64,000 bases of DNA, taken from Faecalibacterium prausnitzii (GTDB lineage Bacteria > Bacillota > Clostridia > Oscillospirales > Ruminococcaceae). A program made the position numbers and the translations under genes. The stretch is from NCBI RefSeq assembly GCF_003287405.1, contig NZ_PRLD01000004.1:62001-126000 (forward strand). The letters are read 5' to 3'. Positions 628 to 41,372 of this stretch are shown here, one piece after another. How positions within the stretch are numbered: position 1 is the first letter of the stretch; every line of letters starts with the position of its first letter. The notes under the pieces are model-generated. The model saw nothing but the letters and a program-made list of their open reading frames with translations. It was not told the DNA's origin and searched no databases.

Positions 628-750
628 CCCTCCCGTGAAAATGGGATAGCGGAGCGCCCGCAGGCGCTCCGCTATCCCGAAAATAAAAATCTTTTTTCCG
701 CTATTTATGCGCAAAGCAACGCGGAGCGCATTCTGAATCGTCAAATCGTC
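628..750 (-). repeat. Family II two-hairpin element, copy C
   Basis: Read on the minus strand it runs: ATCGTC end motif (737-750, duplicated), hairpin 2 with 6-bp stem ATGCGC/GCGCAT (707-712, 726-731) around a conserved 13-nt loop, an AT-rich linker, hairpin 1 with a perfect 16-bp stem (643-658, 663-678) closed by a UGCG tetraloop, then ATTTTCACGGGAGGG (628-642). It sits directly after the stop of the ferredoxin gene and may serve as its terminator. Other copies are at 19170-19282, 31252-31362 and 31413-31519. Confidence 0.8.
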
Positions 751-10037: not shown

Positions 10038-10054
10038 TGTAAGAAAAATAAAGA

Positions 10055-10098
10055 AAACAGAATGCCGGACAACCCGCAGGTTGTCCGGCATTCTGTTT
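10055..10098. terminator. Bidirectional terminator between convergent genes
   Basis: A perfect 20-bp stem (AAACAGAATGCC... at 10055-10074 pairing with 10079-10098) is closed by CGCA on plus, which is a C(UGCG)G tetraloop on minus. It separates the TetR-type gene and the ABC importer operon. Confidence 0.85.
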
Positions 10099-10107
10099 AA
10101 AAACTCT

Positions 10108-10872
10108 TTACAGCATCTTGGAGAGGAAGGCTTTCAGACGGGGGTGTTTGGGGTTGGTGAACAACTCCTGCGGCGGCTCATCCTCCTGAATTTTGCCACC
10201 GTCAATGAAGATGACCCGGTTGGACACCTCGCGGGCAAAGCCCATTTCGTGGGTGACCACCAGCATGGTGATGCCGGTGTGTGCCAGCTCCTTCATCAGC
10301 TCCAGCACCTCGCCCACCATCTCGGGGTCAAGGGCGCTGGTGGGCTCGTCGAACAGGATCACGTCCGGGTCCATGGCCAGCGCACGGGCAATGGCGATGC
10401 GCTGCTGCTGACCGCCGGACAGGCTCTTGGGGTAGGCGTTGGCCTTGTCAGCCAGACCTACGCGGGCCAGCAGCTCGTCTGCGCGGGCAGAGATGGCGTC
10501 CTTGTCCTTCAGCTTCAGCAGGCTGGGTGCCAGCTCAAGGTTCTTTTTCACGGTCAGGTGGGGGAACAGGTTGAAGTGCTGGAACACCATGCCCATCTTC
10601 TGGCGCACGGCATCGATGTGTGTCTCGTTTACCTCCACACCCTCAAACTTGATGGAACCGGAGGTGGGAGTCTCCAGCCGGTTCAGGCAGCGCAGAAAGG
10701 TGGACTTGCCGCAGCCGGAAGGGCCGATCAGGCACACCACATCGCCGCGGTAAATATCAAGGTCGATGCCTTTCAGCACATCCAGCGTGGGGTCGGCCTT
10801 TTTTGCGCCGCGCTTCTTTACGCCGCCATAGGTCTTGGTCAGGCCGCGTACTTCCAAAATCTTATCGGTCAC
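10108..10872 (-). CDS. Polar amino-acid ABC transporter ATP-binding protein
   Basis: About 254 residues when started at GTG 10872, which has GGAGG 10 bases upstream; the ATG at 10893 has no such site. Walker [11 protein letters not shown]-loop FQHFNLFPH, signature LSGGQQQR, Walker [13 protein letters not shown] and H-loop THEMGF are all present, as in GlnQ/HisP. It overlaps the end of the permease gene by 11 bases, so the two are translationally coupled. It powers uptake by the binding protein and permease upstream. Confidence 0.93.
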
Positions 10873-19169: not shown

Positions 19170-19282
19170 CCCTCCCGTGAAAATACATTTGTCGCGGCCA
19201 ACAGGCAGCGACAAATGTGAAATCAAAAATCATGATTCCTCTGAAGATGGCAAAGCGAACGCGGAGCCATTTTTGGATCATC
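19170..19282 (-). repeat. Family II two-hairpin element, copy A
   Basis: Read on the minus strand: GATGAT end (19277-19282), hairpin 2 stem ATGGC/GCCAT (19247-19251, 19266-19270) around the conserved 14-nt loop, AT-rich linker, hairpin 1 stem ACATTTGTCGC/GCGACAAATGT (19185-19195, 19208-19218) with a 12-nt loop instead of UGCG, then ATTTTCACGGGAGGG (19170-19184), identical over 15 bases to copy C. It lies antisense between metY and metA. Confidence 0.78.
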
Positions 19283-19303
19283 TAGCAAAGGAGCAACCAT
19301 CCT

Positions 19304-29747: not shown

Positions 29748-31241
29748 ATGAAAATAGGATTTGACAACGACAAATATCTTTCCATGCAGTCTGAGCATAT
29801 CCGCGAGCGCATCAAGAAGTTTGACAATAAACTGTATCTGGAATTCGGCGGCAAGCTGTTCGATGATTACCACGCCTCCCGCGTGCTGCCCGGCTTTCAG
29901 CCGGACTCCAAGCTGCAGATGCTGCTGCAGCTCAAGGAGCAGGCCGAGATCGTCATCGTCATCAGCGCCGAGGACATCATCAGCAGCAAGGTGCGCGGCG
30001 ACTACGGCATCACCTACGATCTGGACGTGCTGCGCCTGATCGACGCTTTTCAGGAGGTGGGGCTGTATGTGGGCAGCGTGTGCGTGACCAAGTACACCGC
30101 CGCCGCCGAGGTGGAGGCCTTTGAAAAGCGGCTGAACAGTCTGGGCATCCGCACCTTCCGCCACTACAAGATCCCCGGCTACCCCAACGATGTGGCACGC
30201 ATCGTCAGCGACGAGGGCTACGGCCGCAACGAGTACATTGAGACCGAGCGCCCGCTGGTGGTCATCACCGCGCCCGGCCCCGGCAGCGGAAAAATGGCGG
30301 TCTGCCTGTCCCAGCTGTACCATGAATATAAGCGCGGCGTCAAGGCCGGTTACGCCAAGTTCGAGACCTTCCCCATCTGGAACATTCCCCTGAAGCACCC
30401 GGTCAATCTGGCTTACGAGGCCGCCACCGCCGACCTGAACGATGTGAACATGATCGACCCCTTCCATCTGGAAGCCTACGGCGTGACCACCGTGAACTAC
30501 AACCGCGACATTGAGATCTTCCCGGTGGTGAACGCCATGTTCGAACTGATCGCAGGCCAGAGCCCCTACAAGTCCCCCACGGATATGGGCGTGAACATGG
30601 CCGGCAACTGCATCGTGGACGATGCAGTCTGCTGCGAAGCCTCCCGCAAGGAGATCGTGCGCCGGTACTACAAGTGCCTGTGCCAGCAGAAGATCACCGG
30701 CACCGCCAAGGAGAGCGAGCGCTATAAGCTGGAGCTGCTGATGAATCAGGCCGGGCTGACCATGGGTGCACGAGAGGTGGAAAAGCAGGCCCACGCCCGC
30801 AGCGAAGCCACCGGCGGCGCACCGGCTGCTGCCATTGAGCTGAGCGACGGCACCGTGATCACCGGCAAGACCGGCCCGCTGCTGGGTGCTACCGCAAGCG
30901 CCCTGATCAATGCGCTCAAGTATCTGGCGGGCATCCCGCAGGAGACGGATTTGGTCAGCGCAACTGCCATTGAGCCCATCCAGACCCTCAAGACCAACTA
31001 TCTGGGCGGCAAGAACCCCCGCCTGCACACCGACGAGATCCTGATCGCCCTGTCCAGCTCTGCTGCTTCCAGCGAGCTTGCCGCAGCAGCCATGCACCAG
31101 CTGCCCAACCTCAAGGGCTGTGATGTACACTCCACCGTGCTGCTTTCCAGCGTGGACAGCAGCACCCTGAACCGTCTGGGGATGTACCTGACCTGCGACC
31201 CCGTCTACGAGGAAGAGGACCGCAAGTACCATAAGCTGTAA
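29748..31241 (+). CDS. DUF1846-family protein of unknown function
   Basis: 497 residues, full length for the family, which is widespread in Firmicutes but lacks an established biochemical role. It starts MKIGFDNDKYLSMQSEHIRERI. A P-loop-like TAPGPGSGKMAVCLSQLYH near residue 175 hints at nucleotide binding, and the C-terminal third carries a Ser/Ala-rich, metabolite-binding-like segment. No signal peptide or membrane helix. Monocistronic between a promoter and a family II repeat that may terminate it. Confidence 0.85.
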   Translation: MKIGFDNDKYLSMQSEHIRERIKKFDNKLYLEFGGKLFDDYHASRVLPGFQPDSKLQMLLQLKEQAEIVIVISAEDIISSKVRGDYGITYDLDVLRLIDAFQEVGLYVGSVCVTKYTAAAEVEAFEKRLNSLGIRTFRHYKIPGYPNDVARIVSDEGYGRNEYIETERPLVVITAPGPGSGKMAVCLSQLYHEYKRGVKAGYAKFETFPIWNIPLKHPVNLAYEAATADLNDVNMIDPFHLEAYGVTTVNYNRDIEIFPVVNAMFELIAGQSPYKSPTDMGVNMAGNCIVDDAVCCEASRKEIVRRYYKCLCQQKITGTAKESERYKLELLMNQAGLTMGAREVEKQAHARSEATGGAPAAAIELSDGTVITGKTGPLLGATASALINALKYLAGIPQETDLVSATAIEPIQTLKTNYLGGKNPRLHTDEILIALSSSAASSELAAAAMHQLPNLKGCDVHSTVLLSSVDSSTLNRLGMYLTCDPVYEEEDRKYHKL

Positions 31242-31251
31242 GGATACAGCC

Positions 31252-31362
31252 GGACGATTTAGAATGGCCGCCGCGTGCGCTTTGGCCATTGTTTAAGGAA
31301 ATAAGCTTTGTTTGATTTGTGGCTCAGAAACGCCTGCGGGCGTTTCTGAGCCACTTTTTCAC
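31252..31362 (+). repeat. Family II two-hairpin element, copy D
   Basis: On plus: GGACGATT (31252-31259), hairpin 2 stem AATGGCC/GGCCATT (31263-31269, 31284-31290) with the conserved 14-nt loop, linker, hairpin 1 with a perfect 16-bp stem (31319-31334, 31339-31354) and TGCG tetraloop, then TTTTTCAC. The T-run makes it a convincing terminator for the DUF1846 gene, which stops 11 bases before it. It faces copy B. Confidence 0.85.
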
Positions 31363-31412
31363 AGCTGGGGGTCGTGATTGGAAACTGCATTTTGCCTTTA
31401 TAACCTTTTTTT

Positions 31413-31519
31413 GTGAAAATGCGTTTGGAGCGCTCCGCAGAGCGCGACAAACGCGAAATAAAAATAATCATTCCGCTGAAAATATCCAGAGCGTAAGCGG
31501 AGGATATTTCCAATCGTCC
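31413..31519 (-). repeat. Family II two-hairpin element, copy B
   Basis: Read on minus: GGACGATT (31512-31519), hairpin 2 stem AAATATCC/GGATATTT (31480-31487, 31502-31509) with the 14-nt loop, linker, hairpin 1 (31421-31454) made of 7 bp, a tandem GA/GA internal loop and 6 bp closed by TGCG, then ATTTTCAC. It is antisense to and upstream of the SNF transporter gene and inverted relative to copy D, 50 bases away. Confidence 0.82.
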
Positions 31520-39665: not shown

Positions 39666-40155
39666 AGCCGCCCTCCGCCCGGATGTAGTGGCCGCTTTTG
39701 CCGCCGGTCTTTTCCACCAGATGGATCTCGCCCAGCTCCATGCCCTTATCCACGGCCTTGCACATATCGTAGATGGTCAGCAGTGCGGTGGAAACGCCGG
39801 TCAGCGCTTCCATCTCCACGCCGGTCACGCCGCTGGTTTTTACGGTGCAAAGGGCTTCCACGGCCTGCTGCTCGGGCAGCAGACGGAACTCGATGCCTAC
39901 CTTGGTCAGGGGCAGCGGATGGCACAGGGGGATCAGCTCGCTGGTGCGCTTGGTGGCCATAATGCCCGCAATGCGCGCCACGCCCAGCACATCGCCTTTT
40001 TTCACAGTGCCGCTCTGCACTGCGGCAAAGGCTTCGGCGTTCATGGTAATAATGCCGTGGGCAATGGCTTCCCGGGCGGTGACGGGCTTTGCGCTCACGT
40101 CCACCATCACGGCATTCCCGGCGGCATCAAAATGTGTCAGATTATTATCATTCAT
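39658..40155 (-). CDS. moaC: Cyclic pyranopterin monophosphate synthase
   Basis: 165 residues, full length. [38 protein letters not shown] (active-site region), [31 protein letters not shown] (the catalytic core) and a C-terminal [11 protein letters not shown] are all as in MoaC. The ribosome site is weak (AAGAAAG). First gene of the moaC-moaA-mog transcript; a family I repeat precedes it. Confidence 0.97.
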
Positions 40156-40203
40156 AAAGATCGTATCTTTCTTATTTTAAAATGAATCAAATTTGCAAAC
40201 GTC

Positions 40204-40342
40204 CTCGCCCTCTCAGGCTCATTTCATTCGCCAGCTCCCCCAAAGTGGGAGCCCTTGGCAGTCCACGCAAACTTCATCTCTTTGCCAAGGCCTCTCCCTT
40301 TGGGAGAGGTGGCACGGCGTAGGCCGTGACGGAGAGGGCGAG
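40204..40342. repeat. Family I paired element, outward-facing units
   Basis: 139 bp bounded by a perfect 11-bp inverted repeat CTCGCCCTCTC (40204-40214) / GAGAGGGCGAG (40332-40342). The right unit has hairpin CCTCTCCC-TT-TGGGAGAGG, then stem CACGGC/GCCGTG and TGACGGAGAGGG; the left unit is the inverted relative with GGC...GCC. A nested CCTTGGCA/TGCCAAGG repeat (40253-40290) lies at the centre. Same length and plan as 23876-24015. Confidence 0.85.
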
Positions 40343-40352
40343 CAAGCTGCCC

Positions 40353-41372
40353 TTAGCAGTGCCCAAAGCCGCAGTTCGGCCAGTGGCACACTTCGCAGTT
40401 CAGGCACAAGCCGCCTTCGCCCAAGCGGGCGATATCCTCGGCGGTGATGGGGTCATCTGCCAGCAGGCGGGGCAGCAGCAGGTCAAAAATGGTGCGCTTG
40501 GCGTACATCACGCAGCCGGGCAGGCCGCACACCGGCACACCGCCCAGATAGCTGACGAGGAACATGGCTCCCGGCAGCACCGGTGCACCATAGGTGATGA
40601 TATCGGCGCCGGTGTTCTTGATGGCAAGCGGGGTGCGGTCGTCGGGGTCCACGCTCATGCCGCCGGTGGTAAAGATCAGCTCACACCCTGCGGCCTTGGC
40701 TTCCAGAATGGCGGCGGTGATCCCGGCGGGGTCGTCATCGCAGACCTTGTGGAAAACCATCTCGCAGCCGTAGACGGCCAGCTTGCTTTGCAGGATGGGG
40801 GTAAATTTATCCTCGATGCGTCCCTTGAACACCTCGCTGCCGGTGGTGATGATGCCCACCTTTTTGGCCTGCATGGGCAGCACGTTCAGGATAGGCTCTG
40901 CCCCGGCAGCGGCCTGCATGGCGTCCATCTTCTCCTGCTCGATGACCAGCGGGATGATGCGGGTACCGGCAAGCTTCTGACCCTTTTTCACCGGCAGGTC
41001 GCCGTGGATGGTGGCGATCATCATCTGCGGGGTGCTGTTCACAGCCAGAAGCGCCCTGCGGTTGATCTTTAGCAGCCCATCGCAGTCTGCGATCAGCTCG
41101 ATCTTGCCTTCTTTCGGCGCAGTGCCGTGGATATTTTTGCCCGCAGCGGCCTTGTACAGCAGGGCGGCTGCTTCGTCCTCGTGGAGGATGCCGGGGTGCT
41201 TTTCCCAGACGTAGAGGTTCTCCTTGCCGATGGAAAGCAGCACGGGAATATCCTCGGGCTGGATGACGTGCCCCTTGCGGAAGCGGGCATCCTTGTACTC
41301 GCCCGGGATGATCTGGGTGATATCATGGCAGAGCACCTGCCCTGCGGCGTCAACAGTACGGATCAGTTTCAT
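40353..41372 (-). CDS. Molybdopterin-binding protein (MoeA/CinA-like) with Cys-rich tail
   Basis: 339 residues. A MoCF-type molybdopterin-binding domain at about 170-310 (VGIITTGSEVFKGRIEDKF, LIFTTGGMSVDPDDRTPLA, GLPGCVMYAKRTIFDLLLPR) follows an N-terminal domain of about 165 residues. The last 20 residues are CLNCEVCHWPNCGFGHC, a probable metal or Fe-S site not found in ordinary MoeA. It lies 13 bases after mobB in the moeA-mobB transcript. A role in molybdenum or tungsten insertion is likely; the exact step is not known. Confidence 0.85.
   Translation of the reverse strand: MKLIRTVDAAGQVLCHDITQIIPGEYKDARFRKGHVIQPEDIPVLLSIGKENLYVWEKHPGILHEDEAAALLYKAAAGKNIHGTAPKEGKIELIADCDGLLKINRRALLAVNSTPQMMIATIHGDLPVKKGQKLAGTRIIPLVIEQEKMDAMQAAAGAEPILNVLPMQAKKVGIITTGSEVFKGRIEDKFTPILQSKLAVYGCEMVFHKVCDDDPAGITAAILEAKAAGCELIFTTGGMSVDPDDRTPLAIKNTGADIITYGAPVLPGAMFLVSYLGGVPVCGLPGCVMYAKRTIFDLLLPRLLADDPITAEDIARLGEGGLCLNCEVCHWPNCGFGHC

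Follow-up and report, generated by a model that had tools for sequence, protein, structure and literature searches.

The window, by which we mean the whole 64,000-nucleotide stretch of DNA analysed here, holds four copies of a structured repeat, two of them single and two facing each other tail to tail in an inverted doublet (Table 1). A sequence-only reading had described four structured copies, each with two hairpins, and all four read so in the sequence, as do the hairpin 2 stems and the 13-14 nt loops it gave; hairpin 1, a stem of 15-16 positions, pairs in every copy as claimed and is capped by C(TGCG)G in three of the four (TGTT in 19177-19283), though the stems of copies 2 and 4 contain mismatches. 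Folding z-scores against dinucleotide shuffles were -3.8, -2.8, -6.1 and -5.0 for copies 1 to 4. Copy 1 lies 14 bp past the stop of the minus-strand gene 757-2055, its tail GGGAGGGG runs on to ~627 and an additional GGACGATT is found at 744-751; copy 2 is a 119-bp insertion relative to genome G017, and copy 3 begins 10 bp past the stop of the gene 29748-31241. A weak fifth match to the model (29.3 bits, E 0.0003) at 10051-10183, across a gap between convergent genes, is perhaps a decayed copy.

Table 1. Copies of the repeat and their parts in the window
Feature	Position	Strand	Basis
Copy 1 (single)	635..743	-	model match, 121 bits
Hairpin 2, copy 1: ATGCGC/GCGCAT, loop TCCGCGTTGCTTT	707..731	-	sequence
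Hairpin 1, copy 1: 16 bp, TGCG loop	643..678	-	sequence and folding
Copy 2 (single), antisense, flanked by two plus-strand genes	19177..19283	-	model match and relatives' sites
Hairpin 2, copy 2: ATGGC/GCCAT	19247..19270	-	sequence and folding
Hairpin 1, copy 2: one mismatch	19185..19218	-	sequence; G029 orthologue fully paired
Copy 3, left arm of inverted doublet	31252..31362	+	model match
Hairpin 2, copy 3: AATGGCC/GGCCATT	31263..31290	+	sequence and folding
Hairpin 1, copy 3: 16 bp, TGCG loop, then TTTTTCAC	31319..31354	+	sequence and folding
50-bp doublet centre separating two facing ATTTTCAC ends	31363..31412	.	sequence
Copy 4, right arm of inverted doublet, tail to tail with copy 3	31413..31519	-	model match
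Hairpin 2, copy 4: AAATATCC/GGATATTT	31480..31509	-	sequence and folding
Hairpin 1, copy 4: 15 positions, two-base internal mismatch, TGCG loop	31421..31454	-	sequence and folding

The consensus of the unit was drawn from 84 full copies in the genome that holds the window (own genome below; E<=1e-14). The unit runs from a 5' end GGACGATTT, which reads GGACGATTTnGAA in the 84 copies, through hairpin 2, an AT-rich linker of the type TCAGCGGAAAAATTATTTTTATTT, hairpin 1 and ATTTTCAC to a GGGAGGGGTCGTAA tail. Hairpin 2 is short, with a near-constant loop like TCCGCGTTnGCTTT and ATGCGC as its commonest stem, whilst hairpin 1 has 15-16 bp and carries the TGCG loop in 73/84 copies. The tail after ATTTTCAC is like GGGAGGGGTCGTAAxGGAAA in most of the 84, and the unit is longer than first drawn; some copies have a third hairpin beyond the tail. 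Units stand alone or as inverted tail-to-tail doublets: among at least 116 matches in the own genome, 18 inverted pairs are tail to tail and none head to head, doublet members account for 36 of 116 and the remaining 80 are singles or split copies.

Several copies contain other DNA. The same additional element of ~90 nt, which starts near ATCGCAATTTTCAA and has a hairpin of its own, lies within the AT-rich linker at L008 1501-1704 and L076 1500-1703, and part of it also occurs at L077 1533-1637. In several copies (own C44 12766-12875, that is L067 1467; L069 1502-1612; copies in G017 and G029) an element of ~100-130 nt (AGCTTGTCGGGGCAAAGCCCCTCC...) stands at the hairpin 1 apex, placed as though the TGCG loop were its target. 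A subfamily has ~120 nt inserted in the hairpin 2 loop (GTCGTCGTTGTTGCAC end; L026 1854-1953, L058 1592, L071 1508, L007 242 and L074 1564).

Copy number and distribution

A covariance model built from the four window copies was used to search genomes, with at most 150 candidates scored in the own-genome search, 121 in the genus-wide search and 12 in the search of the family. The own genome (3.03 Mb) gave at least 140 matches at E<=0.1 and at least 116 at E<1e-6 (at least 112 in the genus-wide search), a few of which are split copies or reverse-strand matches to hairpin 1 alone. Across 31 genomes of the genus (E<=1e-6), eight hold from 70 to at least 121 matches, three hold one or two and 20 hold none; the copy-rich set comprises the own genome and seven further genomes of the same clade, and a laxer search of six copy-poor genomes returned 4, 3, 0, 1, 0 and 1 matches. 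With strict filters, 2 of 297 genomes searched across the family matched, both of them Faecalibacterium, and an exact pattern, sought in named hosts, was found in seven stretches from three Faecalibacterium genomes. The expectation that the four copies would lead to others with paired stems, in this genome and in its relatives, was thus borne out, and the repeat forms a clade-specific family, numbering some hundred copies or more, in one branch of Faecalibacterium.

The sequence-only reading knew no named RNA of this plan, and Rfam agrees: no family reached threshold on any copy in the window, where two tRNAs were the only matches, and nothing reached the gathering score on a copy in eight loci that hold copies, a sub-threshold His_leader match (E 0.51) overlapping one copy. 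A THF riboswitch (Rfam, 87.7 bits) lies at L056 9370-9466, away from the copy there and unrelated to the copies. Carriage by phages or plasmids was considered and set aside, with no match in a pattern scan of viral_contigs, none among plasmids, and 15 in 50,697 phage records, all of them unannotated 4-12 kb fragments from faecal samples labelled 'Bacteriophage sp.', which may be bacterial DNA. Searches of the main texts of openly available papers brought up no description of such a family in Faecalibacterium. Candidate RNAs of palindromic form have been reported from human microbiomes, the majority of them with a predicted terminator (PMC8040213); F. prausnitzii is unnamed in the main text of that paper, and the family could be present in its supplement tables.

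Pairing of the stems and exchange of hairpin 1 between relatives

Standard pairs fill 93.1% of the 1896 pair cells in the 84 full copies; the share falls to 65.1 +/- 0.7% on shuffling and to 32-43% with the arms slid by 1-3 columns, and 504 cells are altered on both sides, against 140. The copies were aligned by fitting to the model, with its four founders among them, and these figures therefore lean towards structure. Both-side changes occur in 16/16 pairs of hairpin 1 and 5/7 of hairpin 2. Within hairpin 1 (1310 cells), 1254 cells are Watson-Crick, 3 are G.U, 10 A.C and 43 other, and changes in both arms affect 429 cells against 4 changed in one arm. Stepwise compensation should leave more G.U intermediates than this, and we therefore examined orthologous sites.

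Syntenic blocks between own C44 and the genomes G017 and G029 are 93-98% identical. We compared 26 copy pairs, 20 of which, from 18 sites, have 5' parts at least 80% identical. Of these 20 pairs, eight have hairpin 1 at least 94% identical, one has 81% identity and the other 11 reach no more than 66%; counted by site, with the 5' half conserved, hairpin 1 differs at eight, is kept at eight and is intermediate or doubtful at two. The 11 low pairs include a doubtful one (g17:227131), where the hairpin is interrupted and its arms look to be of the same type, and three from a single site that shows three different stems (own 13034, g17 227406, g29 234242). Among the eight differing sites are a doublet in reversed direction (own 20884 vs g29 242091), a hairpin 1 lost in G029 (g17:67779), two consecutive hairpin 1 units of which the second alone is kept in G029 (g17:394125), and a hairpin that by eye resembles a host terminator (g17:405006). 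The two stems at g17:77535/g29:79110 pair perfectly, with about three pairs changed between them. The stem finder took the wrong hairpin at places where hairpin 1 is interrupted (g17:174271, g17:227131, g29:295746, own:12766).

Hairpin 1 is thus often replaced wholesale between close relatives with the remainder of the copy still recognisable. As 5' parts, linkers and tails are common to all copies, the exchange is most simply explained by recombination between them, probably across the common linker and tail; inversion within doublets, and tandem insertion followed by deletion, would probably be further routes. Hairpin 2 stems assort independently of hairpin 1 stems over the 84 copies (Mantel r 0.019, p 0.27), whilst some linkage persists between the 5' part and hairpin 1 (r 0.10, p 0.002) and between hairpin 1 and the tail (r 0.12, p 0.002). 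Given whole-unit exchange, independent assortment and the rarity of intermediates, covariation among paralogues is not by itself proof of selection on RNA. The changing stems had been read as compensatory evolution under selection; the orthologous sites and the scarcity of single-step intermediates speak against this, and what looked 'compensatory' is for the most part replacement of a module.

The proposed pseudoknot between the linker TCCGC and the GCGGA of the hairpin 2 loop fared no better. The complement is full in copies 1 and 4, reaches 4/5 in copy 2 and is nearly missing in copy 3 (GCCGC vs AAGGA), and both motifs are present in 53/84 copies; where the linker side differs, however, the loop does not change along with it in these 84 copies, and we rejected the pairing for want of compensating changes.

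Gene context, mobility and nature of the repeat

Neighbouring genes were called by codon usage with a script of our own and not with an annotator. Convergent genes flank 36 of the 98 copies; 29 are sense and 29 antisense in co-directional gaps, one lies between divergent genes and for three a neighbour is lacking. No copy has an overlap above 30 bp with a called gene. The 44 gaps of the window, for comparison, are 35 co-directional, five divergent and four convergent. Singles in co-directional gaps are 15 sense and 21 antisense (p 0.41), a count for which doublets were listed by hand and two of the 84 copies, having no called neighbour, were omitted. Copies therefore are not sited as leaders and are not tied to the upstream gene: they settle in gene-free stretches and mostly spare promoters, and a cis-regulatory RNA was rejected on the lack of orientation preference and the single copy between divergent genes. 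A simple rule requiring a stem and a U-run finds a terminator-like structure on the plus strand of 65/84 copies and on the minus strand of 6/84, with 19/84 failing it (the scan covered slightly different stretches on the two strands). Of 55 sense copies, 36 have their start no more than 30 bp from a stop codon, and 5 of the 19 lying further off have another rule-based terminator ahead of them. The loop C(UGCG)G is of the UNCG type, which is stable in RNA.

Presence of the copies varies between relatives. The site of copy 2 is occupied in the own genome and G029, holds a copy without hairpin 1 in G013, and is empty in G017, where the stop codon abuts the ribosome site of the next gene; the same gap contains another copy in G027 and G028 and, in G012, which is copy-free by the model, what appears by eye to be a decayed copy. 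No target-site duplication is visible at copy 2, and the surroundings of other sites are altered. Doublet 3/4 is shared with G029 and missing from G013 and G017, where by eye a terminator-like hairpin stands in its place. Further singles and doublets are polymorphic between G017 and G029, some present in the one and some in the other; losses may explain part of the absences. Among the 84 own copies none are nearly identical, the closest pair differing at 7.5% of positions, which gives no hint of very recent copying. Of the three guesses of the sequence-only reading, a terminator module and a mobile hairpin element both fit.

A mobilising enzyme was sought among Y1 transposase genes (PF01797) in the 31 genomes. 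They are absent from G017 and G028, two of the eight copy-rich genomes, G011 has a fragment alone and the gene is interrupted in the own genome; 4 of 17 Y1 loci have a copy nearby (L177, L185, L186, L189; L185 weakly), which is not clearly above expectation. Mobilisation by a RAYT or IS200 transposase was rejected, as this distribution is inconsistent with the copy-rich set, and no autonomous parent of the repeat was found among these genes. In G029:C1 at ~2540200-2540950 (L177) a Y1 gene of IS200 type has been inserted, by comparison with G017, at a copy's 5' end, which we take as an IS landing there.

We consider it likely that the repeat is a non-autonomous, extragenic palindromic element of REPIN- or MITE-like kind, multiplied in one Faecalibacterium clade and bearing a terminator-like hairpin 1 that is swapped as a module. 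Where a copy follows a stop codon, hairpin 1 with its short U-run would probably end transcription, and a doublet would probably do so from both sides; by analogy with REPINs (PMC3116915), the repeat may be moved by an enzyme that recognises its hairpins in single-stranded DNA. In REPINs, which occur in hundreds of copies, RAYT transposases move REP sequences arranged as inverted doublets. REPINs resemble the repeat in being extragenic, palindromic, high in copy number, paired in this inverted manner and replicated within genomes, and their hairpins also show compensatory changes (PMC3116915). Here, however, the unit is ~110 nt with two unlike hairpins, whereas REP sequences are short, the copies are mostly singles, and hairpin 1 is exchanged as a module. 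REP sequences carry a GTAG or CGTC tag at one end (PMC3733652), and in the 84 copies neither hairpin has, by eye, a prominent tag of this kind at its foot. Since no RAYT is tied to the Faecalibacterium repeat we do not file it as a REPIN, though REPINs are the nearest kind. Bacterial MITEs are likewise short, non-autonomous, high in copy number and polymorphic between relatives; terminal inverted repeats of their type are found in doublets only, whose outer ends GGGACGATTT are inverted, and the repeat departs from them in the missing duplication at copy 2, the missing parent among Y1 genes and the frequency of single arms. BOX elements of Streptococcus pneumoniae, likewise structured intergenic repeats dispersed through a Gram-positive genome, share the modular plan, but their modules are not known to be related to those described here. 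With Rho-independent terminators the repeat shares a hairpin followed by a U-run, the UNCG-type loop and a place after stop codons, but it differs as a mobile unit with a second hairpin, conserved ends and an orientation independent of the upstream gene.

Those shared features, together with doublet 3/4 occupying the spot of the relatives' terminator-like hairpin, are what an intrinsic-terminator module dispersed through the genome and kept by selection would show, the copies then being host features and not mobile DNA. We regard this as unlikely: singles in co-directional gaps do not favour the sense orientation, most of the genus lives without copies, copy 2 is antisense between two genes and ends neither, and hairpin 2 and the tail would be superfluous to termination. 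A structured RNA with a function of its own (a cis-regulatory leader, small RNA or protein-bound tag), its fold under selection, would account for the strong pairing with changes on both sides of the stems, the constant hairpin 2 loop and the possible loop-linker pseudoknot in 53 copies, but the absence of an Rfam match at threshold, the indifference to orientation, the near absence of copies from divergent promoter gaps, the replacement of stems as wholes with few G.U intermediates and the uncompensated pseudoknot make it very unlikely.

The perfection of the stems might instead be maintained by a DNA mechanism in which strand switching during replication corrects near-palindromes, and not by selection or transposition alone. 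The preponderance of both-arm over one-arm changes in hairpin 1 suggests as much, as do the two perfect stems about three pairs apart at g17:77535/g29:79110 and the common GCGTTTG stem, which exists mismatched as well as fully paired in either direction. Yet orthologous differences are mostly whole-stem swaps, which recombination between copies explains equally well, and mismatched stems persist, the same mismatched GCGTTTG stem being identical in nine own copies; we hold strand switching to be conceivable, though not likely. A further reading makes the hairpin 1 slot a hypervariable palindrome cassette in which both arms are rewritten at once, so that terminator stems are exchanged by a dedicated or habitual process and not as a by-product of rare recombination. 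Unrelated perfect stems of 15-17 bp would then replace one another at one chromosomal site, with g17:405006 as an example of the uptake of a host terminator hairpin; we think this improbable.

If the repeat is the mobile, module-swapping element that we favour, a large part of the structure found between genes in this abundant genus of the human gut would belong to a mobile family that brings a terminator-like hairpin with it, and transcript ends in Faecalibacterium would turn over along with the repeat. It would also carry a warning, as strong 'covariation' among dispersed paralogues can arise by whole-stem swapping and is therefore weak evidence for a selected RNA. The window contains another palindromic intergenic repeat at 40150-40360 (CTCGCCCTCTC...CCCAAAGGGAGAGG...TTGGCA type), and the CTCGCCCTCTC repeat is also found beside many of the copies and, in G003 and G030, at the site of copy 2.
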